This document shows, piece by piece, positions 3,851 through 20,424 of a DNA stretch of 21,096 nt. Below the pieces are notes generated by a model that ran no database searches, was not told the DNA's origin, and saw only the letters and a list, made by a program, of their open reading frames with translations. A program made the position numbers and the translations under genes. The stretch is taken from positions 1 through 21,096 of the IMG/VR virus record IMGVR_UViG_3300020180_000515; one strand, given 5' to 3'. Each line of letters opens with the position of its first letter. The first letter of the stretch is position 1. This DNA comes from a virus.

Positions 3851-4023
3851 CTGTAAACTCCTAAGTTAAGTTAATAGCTTAATGCTATATATCTATTAAC
3901 ACTATACTTGCATTTACCATCATCTCAGCAGTTATTTTTTAGTTATTTTTACTATACCTCGCCACCGCTATAAGTTCGCACTATCCGCATATTTTTGTTA
4001 TTTATATTTCCCCACAAACTCAC
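3851..4023 (-). promoter_or_regulatory. Leftward promoter/leader cassette, copy A
   Basis: This 173-bp block is nearly identical to 4935-5105, and its gene-proximal 100 bp also match 9397-9497. Read leftward it has a TATAGT -10-like hexamer (3906-3901) with CTGAGA 16 bp upstream as a weak -35, then a leader with the hairpin ATAGC-TTAAT-GCTAT (3874-3888) nested in an outer dyad TTAATAG/CTATTAA (3871-3899), then an AGGAG ribosome site. A second TATAGT lies at 3956-3951. Conservation of non-coding sequence at three unit starts is the main evidence for a regulatory role. Confidence 0.75.
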
Positions 4024-4934: not shown

Positions 4935-5105
4935 CTGTAAACTCCTAAGTTAAGTTAATAGCTTAATGCTATATATCTATTAACACTATACTTGCATTCA
5001 CCAGCATCTTAGCAGTTATCTTTTAGGTTTTTACTATACCTCGCCACCGCTATAAGTTCGCACTATCCGCATATTTTTGTTATTTATATTTCCCCACAAA
5101 CTCAC
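4935..5105 (-). promoter_or_regulatory. Leftward promoter/leader cassette, copy B
   Basis: This 171-bp block is nearly identical to 3851-4023. The -10-like TATAGT is at 4990-4985 (and a second at 5038-5033), the leader hairpin ATAGC-TTAAT-GCTAT at 4958-4972, the outer TTAATAG/CTATTAA dyad at 4955-4983, and AGGAG sits 7 nt before the ATG of the 4584-4934 gene. Differences from copy A are few and cluster between the -10 and the upstream T-rich stretch. Confidence 0.75.
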
Positions 5106-8006: not shown

Positions 8007-8459
8007 TTACCGTGTATTGTTTAAGTTTAGACCATCACGGTCGTAACCATCGCTGTCATATCCATTGATGTCGTACCCGTCCTCATCGAATCCATTCTCG
8101 TCTCGCCACATCACCAACCGTTCCGAACAAAGACCATCACGGGCATACCCCGCACGGTTAAATCCTTCGATATCGTACCCATCACGGTCATACCCTTTTG
8201 TATCGCGCTCGTAAAGTAGTGTTTCCAGTTCCTCCAGTGTTCGACATGGCGAGAAGGCCCAGCACGTTTCTCGGTAAGAGAACCCAAAAAAAATCCTCGC
8301 TTGTTTCCAGCAGCCGTGCTTAGATACAGTCGCTCCCGACATGATTTGTCCCCATCCCGCGAAGCAATGTTTTGTACGTTTGTGCAGCTGTCTTTGATCC
8401 CAGTTAGCCGGATGAGTTTTAATCTCAGCCAGCACCAACTTTACGTTTTCTTTGTTCAT
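8007..8459 (-). CDS. HPxxWDQ-family protein with GYDxD pentapeptide repeats (150 aa)
   Basis: The start is the ATG at 8459, which overlaps the upstream stop as ATGA; a GTG two codons earlier is less likely. Residues 1-60 carry HPANWDQ followed by KHCFAGWGQIMSG. This is the pattern of a widespread family of short uncharacterised phage and plasmid proteins, usually HPE-x-WDQ...C-x-AG-x-A. The C-terminal third is two blocks of a five-residue repeat, GYDRDGYDIEGFNRAGY and ENGFDEDGYDINGYDSDGYD, separated by a short linker with Trp. The acidic aromatic repeat suggests a protein-binding or metal-binding tail; that is inference. Confidence 0.8.
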   Translation of the reverse strand: MNKENVKLVLAEIKTHPANWDQRQLHKRTKHCFAGWGQIMSGATVSKHGCWKQARIFFGFSYRETCWAFSPCRTLEELETLLYERDTKGYDRDGYDIEGFNRAGYARDGLCSERLVMWRDENGFDEDGYDINGYDSDGYDRDGLNLNNTR

Positions 8460-8704
8460 ACGCACGCCCCTGATTCGTATGCCGTCGTCATTCGAGCCTC
8501 AGCAGCAGCCAAATGACGAGTTAACAAAGGCATCAAGTTCGCCCTTGTTACCGTAAGCTCGGCACACAAATCGTTCAGGATCTGTTCTTTGCCACATGGC
8601 TTCGCCACCACGTAGTTCATCATGGCTGACTGTATCACCAAGATGAAGAAGCCCCGTGACAGCTTCGGCAACTCCACTTGTTTAACCCACTTCTTTGTTT
8701 TCAT
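8456..8704 (-). CDS. Small early protein, paralogue family B (82 aa)
   Basis: This aligns with the 9142-9396 protein along most of its length: KL-x4-F followed by AM-x2-Y, a central LCAEL block, then PLLTRHLAAAEAR against PLLTKFKEAAASL. Both are all-helical. It has AAGGA 7 nt before ATG, and its stop overlaps the next start (ATGA). No function is known. The two family B members are separated by two other small genes, consistent with duplication inside the operon. Confidence 0.78.
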   Translation of the reverse strand: MKTKKWVKQVELPKLSRGFFILVIQSAMMNYVVAKPCGKEQILNDLCAELTVTRANLMPLLTRHLAAAEARMTTAYESGACV

Positions 8705-9396: not shown

Positions 9397-9497
9397 TGTA
9401 AACTCCTGTCTTAAGTTAATAGCTTAATGCTATATATCTATTAACACTATACTTGCATTTACCATCATCTCAGCAGTTATTTTTTAGTTATTTTTAC
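9397..9497 (-). promoter_or_regulatory. Leftward promoter/leader cassette, copy C
   Basis: About 100 bp nearly identical to the gene-proximal parts of copies A and B: TATAGT at 9451-9446, leader hairpin ATAGC-TTAAT-GCTAT at 9419-9433, outer dyad 9416-9444, and AGGAG 6 nt before the ATG of the 9142-9396 gene. Unlike A and B it lacks the distal second TATAGT segment and instead runs into a different AT-rich stretch. It drives the longest leftward unit, 12 genes to 5207. Confidence 0.75.
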
Positions 9498-9571: not shown

Positions 9572-9600
9572 TTGCAAAGCATATTTCACTACGCTATACT
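9572..9600 (+). promoter_or_regulatory. Rightward sigma70-like promoter
   Basis: TTGCAA (9572-9577) and TATACT (9595-9600) are separated by exactly 17 bp, close to the bacterial consensus. The expected start is near 9607, where the small hairpin GCTAT-TCCC-ATAGC (9608-9621) begins. The gene at 9654 follows. This promoter is divergent from cassette C. Confidence 0.7.
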
Positions 9601-9947: not shown

Positions 9948-9980
9948 GGCTCGGTAGAGAAATCTATCGGGCCTTTTTTT
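9948..9980 (+). terminator. Intrinsic terminator after the first rightward gene
   Basis: GGCTCGGTAGA (9948-9958), GAAA tetraloop, TCTATCGGGCC (9963-9973), then seven T. The 11-bp stem contains two G-U pairs. This is a textbook Rho-independent terminator, 30 bp after the 9654-9917 stop. Genes from 10108 on therefore need read-through, antitermination or their own promoter; I see no clear promoter in 9981-10107, which otherwise holds nothing recognisable. Confidence 0.88.
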
Positions 9981-10107
9981 ACGTTTAATAGCTGTACTAA
10001 GTATCAGCGGTAACATAGAATGTAGGTGCCGCCGATAACTAGTAGGTCCTTCCTCCCTCCATTAGACCTAACAGTCTCATCCCCCGGTGACACCTACACC
10101 TATTTTT

Positions 10108-13763: not shown

Positions 13764-14627
13764 ATGCCAGAACCAGAAGAAGTTACAAAGGTAGAAGACG
13801 CAAAAACAGAAGCAGCAATGCCAGAGTTTGGAAAACTGCGAAACTTCGCGTTAATCATAGGAGGTAAAGAAAGGCCAGCAGTGCTTGACCTTAACACGTT
13901 AGACCAGATTCTGAACCTAACAAGCAAATCGCTGCCAATGTTAATGGCTAACTTAGCAGACGCCCGTGTAGACGAGATGATTTCCATAGTTTATTCTTGC
14001 TTGAATCAAGCTGACCCCGCTATTTCTAGAGCGGAGGTGTCTTCCTGGCTGAACTACAAAAAGATTCAGTCAGTTATCCTTGCGTTGACAAAGCAGTTAG
14101 CCACATGGCAAATCGAAGACGGAGAAGCATCGTTAGCACCATACGTGCAACTCCCCGAAGTAGTTAAAAAAGAGGCGTTTGATTCGCTAAATCTATCTAC
14201 TGGTCAAACACTCCTAGATATCGGCTGCGGTGAAGGTGGTGTGTTGATCTCAGCGTTAGCGTATGCGCCTCTCAAAGCAGTGTTCGGTGTAGAGTTGAAC
14301 GCTGGCAGAGCAGCTGTCGCTAAGCAATTGCTGCTAACAAATACGGAAAACGAGAAGATTGCGAAAGTCTCCGTGCACCACGGCGACATATGTGATTATA
14401 CGTTACCCCTAGTTGACGCCGTGTACCTGTACCTATTACAAGAGTCTAACGATAAGTTGGCACCTGTGTTAAAAGCTCGGTACGCAGGCGCCCCAACTAA
14501 AATTGTTAGCGTAGACTTCACGTTGCCGTTCCCACTAACGTCCAGAACAGAAGTTACAGCTAACGGTAAAGTTTATCAGGTGTACATGTACGACATGGCC
14601 GAGTGCTTACCAGACCCGGTATCATAA
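13764..14627 (+). CDS. SAM-dependent methyltransferase with an extra N-terminal domain (287 aa)
   Basis: Residues 151-159, LDIGCGEGG, form the SAM-binding motif I of class I methyltransferases; VFGVELN follows as motif II with the acidic residue, then HHGDICDY and DAVYLYLL as later strands. The target is unknown: there is no DPPY/NPPY motif, so an adenine or cytosine-N4 DNA methylase is unlikely. Residues about 25-115 are separate; their pattern (a short strand pair, LDLNTLDQIL, a helix bundle, ADPAISRAEVSSWL) recalls phage tail-assembly chaperones. The ribosome site is AAAGG, 8 nt before ATG. Confidence 0.82.
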   Translation: MPEPEEVTKVEDAKTEAAMPEFGKLRNFALIIGGKERPAVLDLNTLDQILNLTSKSLPMLMANLADARVDEMISIVYSCLNQADPAISRAEVSSWLNYKKIQSVILALTKQLATWQIEDGEASLAPYVQLPEVVKKEAFDSLNLSTGQTLLDIGCGEGGVLISALAYAPLKAVFGVELNAGRAAVAKQLLLTNTENEKIAKVSVHHGDICDYTLPLVDAVYLYLLQESNDKLAPVLKARYAGAPTKIVSVDFTLPFPLTSRTEVTANGKVYQVYMYDMAECLPDPVS

Positions 14628-15969: not shown

Positions 15970-17298
15970 ATGAGCGCAGACCATCCCAATGAAATGTCTG
16001 AACGTGTTTCATACTACAAAAAGATTGCCGCTAGCAATCCAAAGTTTAGAGCAGCTTTAACACCCAAGCTCAATAAGTATATTCCTCACGAACCATCGGA
16101 GAAGCAAGCCGCTTTTTTGTTGTTAGACAATAAAGAAGCTTTTTATGGGGGCGCTGCCGGTGGTGGTAAAAGCGAAGCATTGCTAATGGCCTCATTGCAA
16201 TACATCGAAGTTCCTGATTACTCTGCGTTGCTATTACGTAGGACATTCCGAGAACTTTCAATGCCTAAGGCCATCTTAGACAGGTCAACGCAATGGTTGA
16301 AAAACACCGATATGCGTTGGCGTCCGAAGCAGTACACTTGGGAGTCTCCACAAGGCGGACGCTTAACATTCGGGTACTTGGACCACGAGTCCGACGTGTA
16401 CCAGTATGACTCTGCTGAGTTCCAGTTTATCGGATTCGATGAGCTTACCCAGTTCACAGAGTTTCAGTACACGTTTATGTTTGGCCGCCTACGAAGAACA
16501 CGAGGTATGCCAGTGCCGTTGCGTATGCGCGGAGCCTCAAACCCAGGCGGCGTAGGGCATATATGGTGTAAAAATAGATTCGTAAAAAGCCTTACTGCTG
16601 GTAGAATATTCATTCCAGCCAAAATGCAAGACAACAAGCATTTGGATAGCGAAGAGTACAGCAGCGCCCTAGACGAACTAGACCCCGTAACACAAGCACA
16701 ACGTCGCGACGGCGACTGGGACGCGGAGTACATAGGCGCCATGTTCAAACGATCATGGTTCACAAAGTATGTTAGAACCCGCCCACAAGAATCCGTATCC
16801 GTAAGATTTTGGGATCTAGCTTCTCTAGATGGCCGAGGCGATTACACTGTAGGAACTAAAGTTTCTAAAACCGACAACGGTGTGTACTATATTGAAGATG
16901 TTATTCGTAAACAAATGGGTCCAATGGAAGTAGAGCAGACTCTTCTAGCCACCGCCCGATTGGACGGAGATGACGTTACAATCTGTATAGAACAAGAGCC
17001 CGGCTCCGCAGGCAAGCACGTACTACACAACTACATTAGGATGCTCGCTGGGTACACTGTTAAAGGATCACCCGCTACAGGTAGCAAGTTAAGCAGGTAC
17101 AAGCCGTTCGCCGCACAAGCCGAAGTAGGCAACGTTATTTTACTAGACGGCCCGTGGAACTCAGAGTGGATAGATGAGATCTGTGCTGTGCCAGAATCCA
17201 AACACGACGACCAAGCTGACTCAGCTTCAGGCGCCGTAAATGAGCTGTCCGCCGAGGTTGCCGGAGACTGGGGCATTTCTGTATTAGGATCATTATGA
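15970..17298 (+). CDS. terL: Phage terminase large subunit (442 aa)
   Basis: The packaging motor that translocates DNA into the prohead and cuts it. The ATPase domain has Walker A GGAAGGGKS (60-68), Walker B FIGFDE (153-158) and the coupling RGASNPGG segment near 188-194. The nuclease domain has FWDLAS (Asp282), EQEPGSAGK with acidic residues 341/343, and HDDQADSASGA with Asp413/414/417: a normal set of metal ligands. The length is standard. The start lacks a clear Shine-Dalgarno, and no terminase small subunit is recognisable upstream. A weak TATAAA-type hexamer near 15943 could be a promoter. The stop overlaps the sigma-factor ATG (ATGA). Confidence 0.97.
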   Translation: MSADHPNEMSERVSYYKKIAASNPKFRAALTPKLNKYIPHEPSEKQAAFLLLDNKEAFYGGAAGGGKSEALLMASLQYIEVPDYSALLLRRTFRELSMPKAILDRSTQWLKNTDMRWRPKQYTWESPQGGRLTFGYLDHESDVYQYDSAEFQFIGFDELTQFTEFQYTFMFGRLRRTRGMPVPLRMRGASNPGGVGHIWCKNRFVKSLTAGRIFIPAKMQDNKHLDSEEYSSALDELDPVTQAQRRDGDWDAEYIGAMFKRSWFTKYVRTRPQESVSVRFWDLASLDGRGDYTVGTKVSKTDNGVYYIEDVIRKQMGPMEVEQTLLATARLDGDDVTICIEQEPGSAGKHVLHNYIRMLAGYTVKGSPATGSKLSRYKPFAAQAEVGNVILLDGPWNSEWIDEICAVPESKHDDQADSASGAVNELSAEVAGDWGISVLGSL

Positions 17299-17852
17299 CT
17301 TACTACAAAGTGCAAGGTGACATATCTGTTCGTGTAAAACGACTAGGGTGCAACATAATTCCAATGGCGCTGTCATTAGCGCACAAGTTTTCTAACCACC
17401 AACATGTGGAATTAGAAGATATCATATCCGCCGCGTTATTAGGTTTAGTAAAAGCTAGCAACGAGTTTAACATTAAAATGAACAGTAGGCCCAGTACTTA
17501 CGCCTACAAAAGAATCTCAGGAGAGATCCTAGACTTATTAAGAAAAGAAGGTGTGTACAAAAAAAGATACCAATTAGCGGACGACGAGTTGCTGTCGACA
17601 ATATATAAAGACGCAGAAGTCGAACAGACTATAGCCGAACGCGAACTTATACAAACGCTTCGTAGCATAGTTGTAAACGAGCTTTCTACCGAATTCAAAA
17701 ACATAGTTTATGTAGCGTATTGGAAAAACATGACTGACCAAGAAGCATCTAAAGTTCTTAGCTGTTGTGTAGCTACGTACCGTAAACGAAAAGTAGAAGC
17801 GCTCACCGCATTGAAGTACGCATTTTCAAAGAGAGGCATCAAATGTCGATAA
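17295..17852 (+). CDS. Phage-encoded sigma-70-family factor (185 aa)
   Basis: Region 2 is visible at about 23-86: ALSLAHKFSNHQHVELEDII, then AALLGLVKASNEF and RPSTYAYKRISGEILDLLRK, the core-binding and -10 melting helices. Region 4 is the helix-turn-helix TDQEASKVLSCCVATYRKRK (147-166). It lacks region 1 and has a short linker, as in small sigma factors of the FliA/SigF type. It would redirect host RNA polymerase, most plausibly to phage late promoters. It overlaps terL (4 bp) upstream and the portal gene (10 bp) downstream, so it is made together with head proteins. Confidence 0.85.
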   Translation: MTYYKVQGDISVRVKRLGCNIIPMALSLAHKFSNHQHVELEDIISAALLGLVKASNEFNIKMNSRPSTYAYKRISGEILDLLRKEGVYKKRYQLADDELLSTIYKDAEVEQTIAERELIQTLRSIVVNELSTEFKNIVYVAYWKNMTDQEASKVLSCCVATYRKRKVEALTALKYAFSKRGIKCR

Positions 17853-19138
17853 TTCAAACACTAGGAGGACTTATAAGCAAGTCCTCAATTGTTAGCAGCA
17901 ACGCCGTTCAGTTAACGCGAGGAGGTAAGTACAGCCCTTCAACGTCAATGACGTTTAGAGAAGCTTCTCAAAAAGGTTACAAGAGTTTAACTTGGGTACG
18001 ACGTTGTATTACCACAATAGGCGACGCCGTAGGATCCGTTCCTTGGAAGACCTACAAAGACTTAGGAGACGGCCGCCTCAAAGAGCTACCTACACACCCG
18101 CTGACACGTTTGCTGAACCACCCTAATCGTTTTCATAGTAGAAAAGAGTTCTGTGCCGCCCTAACAGGGCAGCTAAGCTTGTCCGGCAACGCGTACATTG
18201 AAGTCGTAAAAGTAAACGGGAAGCCTAAAGAAATGTACACGATAAACCCATCGTGGTGTTCCCCATTTCCAGACCCAAATCTGTACGTTAGCCACTACGT
18301 AGTTGATCCATCCGGCGGCACTCAAAAGCCCCTTCGTTTAGAACTCGAGGATGTAATACATTTCAAGTACTACGATCCAGAAAACGAGTTTGTAGGTTGC
18401 TCTCCTATTTCAAGTGCCAGAAAAACTATAGAGTTAGAGCACTCAGCTATTCAATGGAATCAAGGCGTGTTCGATAATAGTGCTGTGCCAGGCGGCGTCT
18501 TAAAAGTACCAGCCAATACTATTAAGCCTCAAGAACGCGCTAAGTTAAAACAAGATATTGAAACAGGCTTTACCAAAGAAAACATTGGCAAGCCTATGAT
18601 TCTCTGGGGCGGCATGGAATGGGAAACCATCACTATGTCCCCCCAAGACATAGAGTTCTTAAAGCAACGACAAATAAACAAATATGAAGTATGTGCCATC
18701 TTCGGAGTACCTCCCCAAATGGTTGGCGCCAACGAAGACCCTACATACGCAAACTACGAGGTTGCTCGTCAATCATTCTGGGAAGATCGAGTAATAACAG
18801 ATCTTGAGTGGTTGCAAATCAAATACCAAGAATCTCTGGCGCACTACTACGGCGACGACATCGTTGTGTTGTACGACATTTCAGATATTCCTGCTCTGCG
18901 AAAGAGCTACATGCAGAAAGTAGAAACAGCAAAATCCATGTACCAAATGGGCTACCCTGCCAACGAACTAAACCGACGCCTCCGTTTAGGAATGAAAGAG
19001 ATTCCTTGGGGCGACGTATGGTGGACCCCAATGAATATGATGCCTGTAGATAATGCAGACATCTCTCAGTATGTGAATAACACTGCTAAAACAATGAAAG
19101 AAGGAGAAGGTCATGATCCGTTTGAAGACCCATCATAA
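17843..19138 (+). CDS. Phage portal protein, HK97 family (431 aa)
   Basis: The dodecameric ring at the capsid vertex through which DNA passes. The family markers are visible: KSLTWVRRCITTIGDAVGSVPW (52-73 region), HPLTRLLNHPN, GNAYIEVVKVNGKP, GCSPISSARKTIELEHSAIQ, the clip region with GGVLKVPANT, and GVPPQMVGA. The length is normal. It starts with GAGG 7 nt before ATG, inside the sigma gene. The C-terminus is short and acidic. Confidence 0.96.
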   Translation: MSIIQTLGGLISKSSIVSSNAVQLTRGGKYSPSTSMTFREASQKGYKSLTWVRRCITTIGDAVGSVPWKTYKDLGDGRLKELPTHPLTRLLNHPNRFHSRKEFCAALTGQLSLSGNAYIEVVKVNGKPKEMYTINPSWCSPFPDPNLYVSHYVVDPSGGTQKPLRLELEDVIHFKYYDPENEFVGCSPISSARKTIELEHSAIQWNQGVFDNSAVPGGVLKVPANTIKPQERAKLKQDIETGFTKENIGKPMILWGGMEWETITMSPQDIEFLKQRQINKYEVCAIFGVPPQMVGANEDPTYANYEVARQSFWEDRVITDLEWLQIKYQESLAHYYGDDIVVLYDISDIPALRKSYMQKVETAKSMYQMGYPANELNRRLRLGMKEIPWGDVWWTPMNMMPVDNADISQYVNNTAKTMKEGEGHDPFEDPS

Positions 19139-19141
19139 ATT

Positions 19142-19612
19142 ATGTACACCGAATACGACAAAAAAGAATTCATCGATCTTTTAATACAATGTTTAGCTAC
19201 TATGGAAGGGTACTATAACTCAGAAGAAGACGCCAAGGCTTCTAAAACATCTTGGCCCACGCTTACGCAAAGAAACAGTAATCCCATAGGGTTAACTGTT
19301 TGGGGTGCCTTCCCCATAAACCAAGGCATGGTTAGATTTAACAAGCCGCAAGAAGGCTTAGAAGCCGCTAAACAGTTCATCACCAAAAACGTATTTGTAC
19401 GAAAAGTTTCTTTTTATGAACTGTTTAATGGTTGTGAGCGCGGAGCCGATATCTATAAAGGATTCAGATCGGTAGCGCAAGGTTACAACGCACAACAGTA
19501 CGCCGATTGTTTAATACAGTACTTGTGCTTAAAATCTAAGCACGTAGGCAACTACCAAACGCTGACTAACATAGATGTTTCAGAGCGCACAATCATAGCA
19601 GACTTGTTATGA
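19142..19612 (+). CDS. RNxNP-motif protein, lysozyme-like/P5-type (156 aa)
   Basis: The core TQRNSNPIGLTVWGAFPIN, the NKPQEGLEAAKQFI helix, SFYELFNG and the YNAQQYADCLIQYL helix fit a family usually written QRNNNPGNLR...F-x-SPE-GW-AL...Y. Those proteins (often annotated 'structural protein P5') are thought to be virion-associated, with a lysozyme-like fold. Here the usual GNL is replaced by IGL. Three bases separate it from the portal stop, and its end overlaps the next gene by 4 bp. It might degrade peptidoglycan at entry or act in head assembly. Confidence 0.6.
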   Translation: MYTEYDKKEFIDLLIQCLATMEGYYNSEEDAKASKTSWPTLTQRNSNPIGLTVWGAFPINQGMVRFNKPQEGLEAAKQFITKNVFVRKVSFYELFNGCERGADIYKGFRSVAQGYNAQQYADCLIQYLCLKSKHVGNYQTLTNIDVSERTIIADLL

Positions 19613-20379
19613 CCTCCCCGCAACAAATCGCGTACGCTGTTCAATTGCAAAACTATGTAGACAACGTGACTGTAAACTACGCTACGCTGTTTCAAAATGC
19701 TATTAACAGTTGCTTGCCAGCAGTTACCAACGCGTTGACGTACCGATTTTCCAGTGATGGTGTAGCCAGTATAGTAGAATCCGTAGTCAAGTTAGCCGTT
19801 TCAAAAGTGTACTACACGTTGTACAGTGTATTTGCAAAAGAATACGGTAGTGCCTATGCTCGTATGTTCGTTCCATTGATACGTAAATCTGATGAATTTG
19901 ACGAATGGGATCCTTATGAAGATCCTCAAATGCGAGAATGGATAGCAAGCACTACAGCCACACGTATAACTAAAATAGGAGCATCTACAAGTGCAGGTGT
20001 TCGTGTAATAATCGACCGAGCGCTACAGCAAAACGTACCTTTGCAAGATGTCGTAAAAGAGCTGCAAGCCGCGTACGCATTTTCAAAAGAACGTGCTACT
20101 AAGATAGCCAGGACAGAAATAGTCGCCGCTTCCAATGCCACCAGTCATTTTGTAATGGGAAAATTTATAGACCCTAGCAGCATGAGAAAAGCATGGCTAG
20201 CTACAAGCGACAAACGAACGCGACAAACGCATATAGCCGCCAATGGGCAAGATCAAGAATACAACGATCCATTTCAAGTAGGTGGGTCGAAACTGTTGTT
20301 TCCAGGTGATACAAGTTTAGGGGCAGCCGGTAAAGAAGTAATAGCTTGCCGATGCACTGTCTTGTATATCCCCAAATAG
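19609..20379 (+). CDS. Minor head protein, Mu gpF-like (256 aa)
   Basis: The C-terminal half is the SPP1 gp7 / Mu gpF-type domain: RATKIARTEIVAASNA, a helix, then KAWLATSDKRTRQTHIAANG, and ACRCTVLYIP at the end. The N-terminal half is helical. Such proteins bind the portal and are packaged in low copy into the head. The gene overlaps the previous one by 4 bp and is followed by the protease, the usual order. Confidence 0.9.
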   Translation: MTSPQQIAYAVQLQNYVDNVTVNYATLFQNAINSCLPAVTNALTYRFSSDGVASIVESVVKLAVSKVYYTLYSVFAKEYGSAYARMFVPLIRKSDEFDEWDPYEDPQMREWIASTTATRITKIGASTSAGVRVIIDRALQQNVPLQDVVKELQAAYAFSKERATKIARTEIVAASNATSHFVMGKFIDPSSMRKAWLATSDKRTRQTHIAANGQDQEYNDPFQVGGSKLLFPGDTSLGAAGKEVIACRCTVLYIPK

Positions 20380-20424
20380 CAACTTTAACAAGAGCTGTCG
20401 ACAATATAAACAGGATATAGAGAG

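Follow-up and report, generated by a model that had tools for sequence, protein, structure and literature searches.

What is a sigma factor gene doing between the large terminase gene (terL) and the portal gene of a phage, and which promoters would its product serve? The question is raised by an open reading frame for 185 amino acids at positions 17295–17852 of the window, by which we mean the entire 21,096-base IMG/VR record IMGVR_UViG_3300020180_000515. As the record is classed as linear, the window is probably a fragment. A first-pass annotation had read the frame as a sigma-70-family factor with regions 2 and 4 that overlaps the genes on both sides, and had suggested that coupling its synthesis to the head operon would create positive feedback on late transcription. 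The answer depends on whether the protein is a genuine sigma factor, whether its place in the gene order is genuine and shared, and what the promoters of the window and the sigma factors of other mobile elements indicate about its role.

A short sigma-70-family protein

The product of 17295–17852 is a genuine sigma-70-family protein of the short type, with regions 2 and 4 and without region 3, which is the layout of ECF-type (group 4) sigma factors. No part of the protein is better conserved than region 2, which in this family mediates core binding, −10 recognition and promoter melting; this region is recognized by the Pfam model Sigma70_r2 (PF04542; E = 5.4e-11, 42.6 bits against a cut-off of 24) and carries the conserved motif STYA..I.GEI..LR. 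Region 4 is placed in the protein by the NCBIfam sigma70-ECF model TIGR02937, which spans residues 23–174 (E = 2.5e-16, 59.8 bits against a cut-off of 42.9), together with a modelled helix-turn-helix. The protein also matches phrog_351 (E = 1.1e-11), and in a phmmer search of the PDB, FliA aligns with it over both regions 2 and 4. Scored alone, region 4 reaches 12.9 bits with PF04545 (E = 0.084), below the Pfam cut-off of 24.1. This weak single-domain score is no strong ground for doubt, because gp47 of phage 7-11, a validated sigma factor, scores lower than the window protein against Pfam region 2. The ranking of families is mixed, with the general sigma70-ECF model first, followed by FliA/WhiG and SigF for region 2, and PADLOC gave the protein weak scores only.

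Structure prediction leads to the same assignment. Whereas a single-sequence AlphaFold run was unusable (mean pLDDT 45.5), a 10-row alignment raised the mean pLDDT to 68.1 and yielded usable domains. The resulting model has two helical domains, mostly at pLDDT 70–90, which correspond to region 2 (residues ~18–87) and to the helix-turn-helix of region 4 (residues ~121–179, pLDDT ~72–90), and these are joined by a disordered or low-confidence linker of ~30 residues (88–117). The matches listed by Foldseek against the PDB are sigma chains or sigma–polymerase models, and among viral models the best-ranked matches that carry a name are to sigma factors or to subunits of RNA polymerase. The whole-chain TM-scores are low (0.3–0.4) because the relative placement of the two domains is not predicted, so the fold search backs the domains and not an overall pose. 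The first-pass annotation had staked its reading on a predicted structure containing regions 2 and 4; AlphaFold shows both, Foldseek returns sigma matches, and the identity is borne out by Pfam, NCBIfam and PHROGs as well.

The protein could instead be a degenerate or repurposed relative that takes no part in initiation, serving, for example, as an ArpU-like DNA-binding regulator or as a substitute small terminase subunit. The weakness of region 4 would suit such a role, no small terminase subunit was recognized in the window, and the helix-turn-helix domains of small terminases sometimes match region 4 weakly (as at L226:6394-6960). Yet region 2, with its functions in core binding and melting, would be expected to decay first and is instead the best-conserved part, and the model shows both domains at fair confidence, which makes a loss of the initiation function improbable. 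We consider the 185-residue protein likely to be a functional sigma factor serving phage promoters.

Gene neighbourhood and gene order in relatives

The sigma gene lies on the rightward (+), structural strand in a tightly overlapping run that begins with terL (15970–17298), which is of the psiM2/phrog_979 type (phrog_979, E = 1.6e-104; TIGR01630), and continues with an HK97-type portal gene (17843–19138; TIGR01537, 168 bits against a cut-off of 112; phrog_12). Further along the same strand are a gene for a 156-residue protein with no confident family (19142–19612), a head morphogenesis (minor capsid) gene (19609–20379; phrog_2468, E = 6.3e-39) and a head maturation protease gene that reaches past the end of the contig (20425–21096; phrog_80, E = 3e-47). 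The length of the sigma frame, its coordinates and its two overlaps are exactly as first described. Its ATG at 17295 overlaps the terL stop codon (17296–17298) in a 4-bp ATGA, and the portal ATG at 17843 lies upstream of the sigma stop codon (17850–17852), giving an overlap of 10 bp; a partial Shine–Dalgarno-like GAGAGG for the portal start is located within the sigma gene.

These junctions bear on whether an assembly artefact could have joined the sigma gene to the phage. The arrangement comes from one record only, and the GC content of the sigma gene (39.6%) is lower than that of its neighbours (41–49%). At both junctions, however, starts and stops overlap and the flanking genes are intact, a configuration that a chimera could hardly produce, and the codon preference of the sigma gene fits that of the adjoining genes. 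A chimeric contig is, in our view, a most improbable explanation.

The first-pass annotation took terL and portal to be normally adjacent, which is true of about half of the 13 annotated phage regions that we inspected; the rest have one to several intervening genes. Cargo at this position in other phages includes a PAPS reductase in one and an HNH endonuclease in another. A sigma gene between terL and portal was found in none of these 13 regions and in none of 216 terL- or portal-related loci (80 viral loci and 56 from bacterial or archaeal genomes collected through terL, and 80 viral loci collected through the portal), many of which are short fragments, with several portals too divergent to be recognized by that of the window. 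TIGR02937 was run over 150 of the viral records and our own sigma profile over the open reading frames of all loci collected by then, and scans of viral contigs with the single sigma, terL and portal sequences returned no relatives. To the earlier question of whether relatives keep the order, the answer among these loci is negative. The closest relatives surveyed are only about 50–53% identical in terL and 33% in the portal, so the survey spans distant relatives of this phage only. Judged from these sequences, the terL–sigma–portal order looks private, and it is known from one incomplete 21-kb fragment. The terL relatives come from Bacillota, Melainabacteria, Chloroflexi and archaea, a span that allows no host to be inferred for the phage. 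Matches of the sigma protein labelled 'human fecal phage' were rejected as phage relatives, as they resemble bacterial sporulation sigmas and their scaffolds are unannotated.

Elsewhere in the window, the protein encoded at 13764–14627 weakly matches a tail protein over its first third and has a Mad2-like methyltransferase domain (MADS defence system) behind that part, and the protein encoded at 8007–8465 (− strand) carries many degenerate five-residue repeats of the GYDxD type. Rfam and tRNA searches gave no match. In a different locus (L070:3665-5365), a minor head protein contains an in-frame insertion of ~300 residues before a conserved RC motif, which looks intein/Hint-like.

Promoter searches and repeated elements

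Bipartite and 8-mer searches for a late-promoter motif in 11 late-strand upstream segments, a set from one genome that gives little power, found no excess over shuffles. Sigma-70-type sites are near the shuffle level (22, compared with 17.3 in shuffles), the sigma-28 pattern was absent from the promoter search of the window, and a FliA-type −10 match at 10031 has no −35 box. A host-type promoter-like site (TTGCAA-17-TATACT) occupies 9572–9600; after it comes a terminator-like hairpin at 9948–9973 (+), which stands ahead of the long series of rightward genes to which the head genes belong.

TATAGT hexamers, which had been put forward as late-promoter candidates, turned out to lie in a tandem array at 905–1078 and in three leaders on the opposite strand; the proposed hexamers make poor candidates. 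The array, at the left end of the window, comprises 13.4 tandem copies of the 13-bp unit GTTATCCGCTATA and is possibly an origin or a binding-site array; near-matches to GCCGATAA exceed chance largely owing to it. The leaders, each of 101 nt and 90–97% identical, precede three opposite-strand genes (3852–3952, 4936–5036 and 9397–9497, − strand) and contain TATAGT and an AT-rich inverted repeat, which gives them the look of a shared early promoter or operator.

A 20-nt element has only two copies in the window, GCTGTCGACAATATATAAAG at 17591–17610 (+) within the sigma gene and GCTGTCGACAATATAAACAG at 20394–20413 (+) in the gap preceding the protease gene; GCTGTCGACAATATAWAMAG has two occurrences, in the interior of the sigma gene and directly before the protease gene. 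This element is a possible candidate for a promoter or a binding element, although a promoter at 20394–20413 would have almost no leader, because that copy is so near the protease start codon. An intergenic segment and the late side share an exact match of 15 nt, which is suggestive only, as 2 of 60 shuffles gave a match at least as long.

That the late region yielded no promoter motif would also fit a working sigma factor carried as auxiliary cargo, one that redirects host genes such as dormancy, motility or stress regulons, with the terL–portal junction as a tolerated insertion site. Its region 2 is like that of FliA/SigF-type host sigmas, the PAPS reductase and HNH endonuclease mentioned above occupy the same junction in other phages, and sporulation-like phage sigmas change host dormancy while being non-essential (PMC9429907). 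Against this, the overlap with head genes links the sigma factor to the late phase of expression, in which the phage would gain little from reprogramming its host, and published phage sigmas more commonly activate the phage's own genes. We regard host-directed cargo as unlikely, and prefer a sigma factor that serves the phage's own promoters.

Sigma factors of other mobile elements and a proposed role

For a role at phage promoters there are several points of comparison. The gp47 protein of phage 7-11, like the window protein, has 185 residues with regions 2 and 4 and is encoded in a late-transcribed cluster, and phiEco32 gp36 is, as gp47 is, a short phage-encoded late sigma factor. That gp47 guides the host polymerase to late promoters, of which there are eight, has been proven in vitro; its gene lies deep within the late cluster, and the authors propose that read-through comes first and that positive feedback follows (PMC8948821). 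No homology between gp47 and the window sigma was recognized, with only an out-of-register 35-residue match in BLASTP and a probability of 0.3% in hhalign. The gene order also differs, as terL adjoins the portal gene in 7-11 and the sigma gene is ~30 kb off on the other strand.

Xpf of PBSX turns on the late operon, and its gene presumably sits directly ahead of the terminase genes instead of separating terL from portal. Like the window protein, Xpf is a sigma-like factor with region 2 and region 4, in this case encoded by a prophage (PMC10141391). Sigma genes also lie within the late structural module of Clostridium-type phages (loci L206–L208 and L267–L272, found by sigma-alignment scans, with tail and host assignments made by eye from the sequences). 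Their region 2 is up to ~41% identical to that of the window protein over short stretches, but these sigmas are longer, most have a middle portion like region 3 and additional parts at the C-terminus, and their genes adjoin tail genes instead of terL or portal. SigN (ZpdN) of the pBS32 plasmid-prophage is likewise a mobile-element sigma, with autoactivation shown experimentally; it differs in being freed by LexA loss and in having promoters largely outside the prophage region (PMC6751061).

Two other sigma loci were seen in passing. In a Cytobacillus prophage (L226:4580-5154), two overlapping open reading frames lie upstream of the terminase genes, the second encoding sigma region 4 (E = 2.7e-9) and the first region-2-like by eye only, possibly a two-subunit sigma like SigO–RsoA. 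At L267:8001-10780, two sigma genes stand side by side, the second of which combines two sigma units within a single reading frame.

For the window sigma, we think it quite probable that the protein guides the host's RNA polymerase to promoters of the phage, amplifying the late operon or opening a later module. From its family and domains we infer that region 2 would bind the host core RNA polymerase and that the polymerase so bound would be steered to phage promoters. The sigma factor cannot initiate expression of its own operon unaided, so an initial head-operon transcript is needed from a host-sigma promoter or by read-through. Because sigma would be made together with packaging and head proteins, its level would rise after late transcription starts, and it might then amplify the late operon through the kind of positive feedback proposed for phage 7-11; alternatively, it may open a later module (tail, lysis) outside the fragment. 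Positive feedback on late transcription is, by analogy, plausible here, and the idea is not new, having already been published for phage 7-11. More tentatively, and with less confidence than we place in promoter direction itself, the locus may form a self-amplifying late switch, in which translational coupling ties sigma to the packaging motor and portal, the amount of sigma thus follows the synthesis of head proteins, and sigma drives later modules from its own promoter class.

Phage sigmas are well known as switches of the host polymerase, and what is new among the surveyed relatives is the position of the gene between terL and portal. The start-up problem of a sigma factor encoded in the late operon has been examined in few phages, and the terL–sigma–portal arrangement would make the coupling of transcription switching to the synthesis of head and packaging proteins directly testable.
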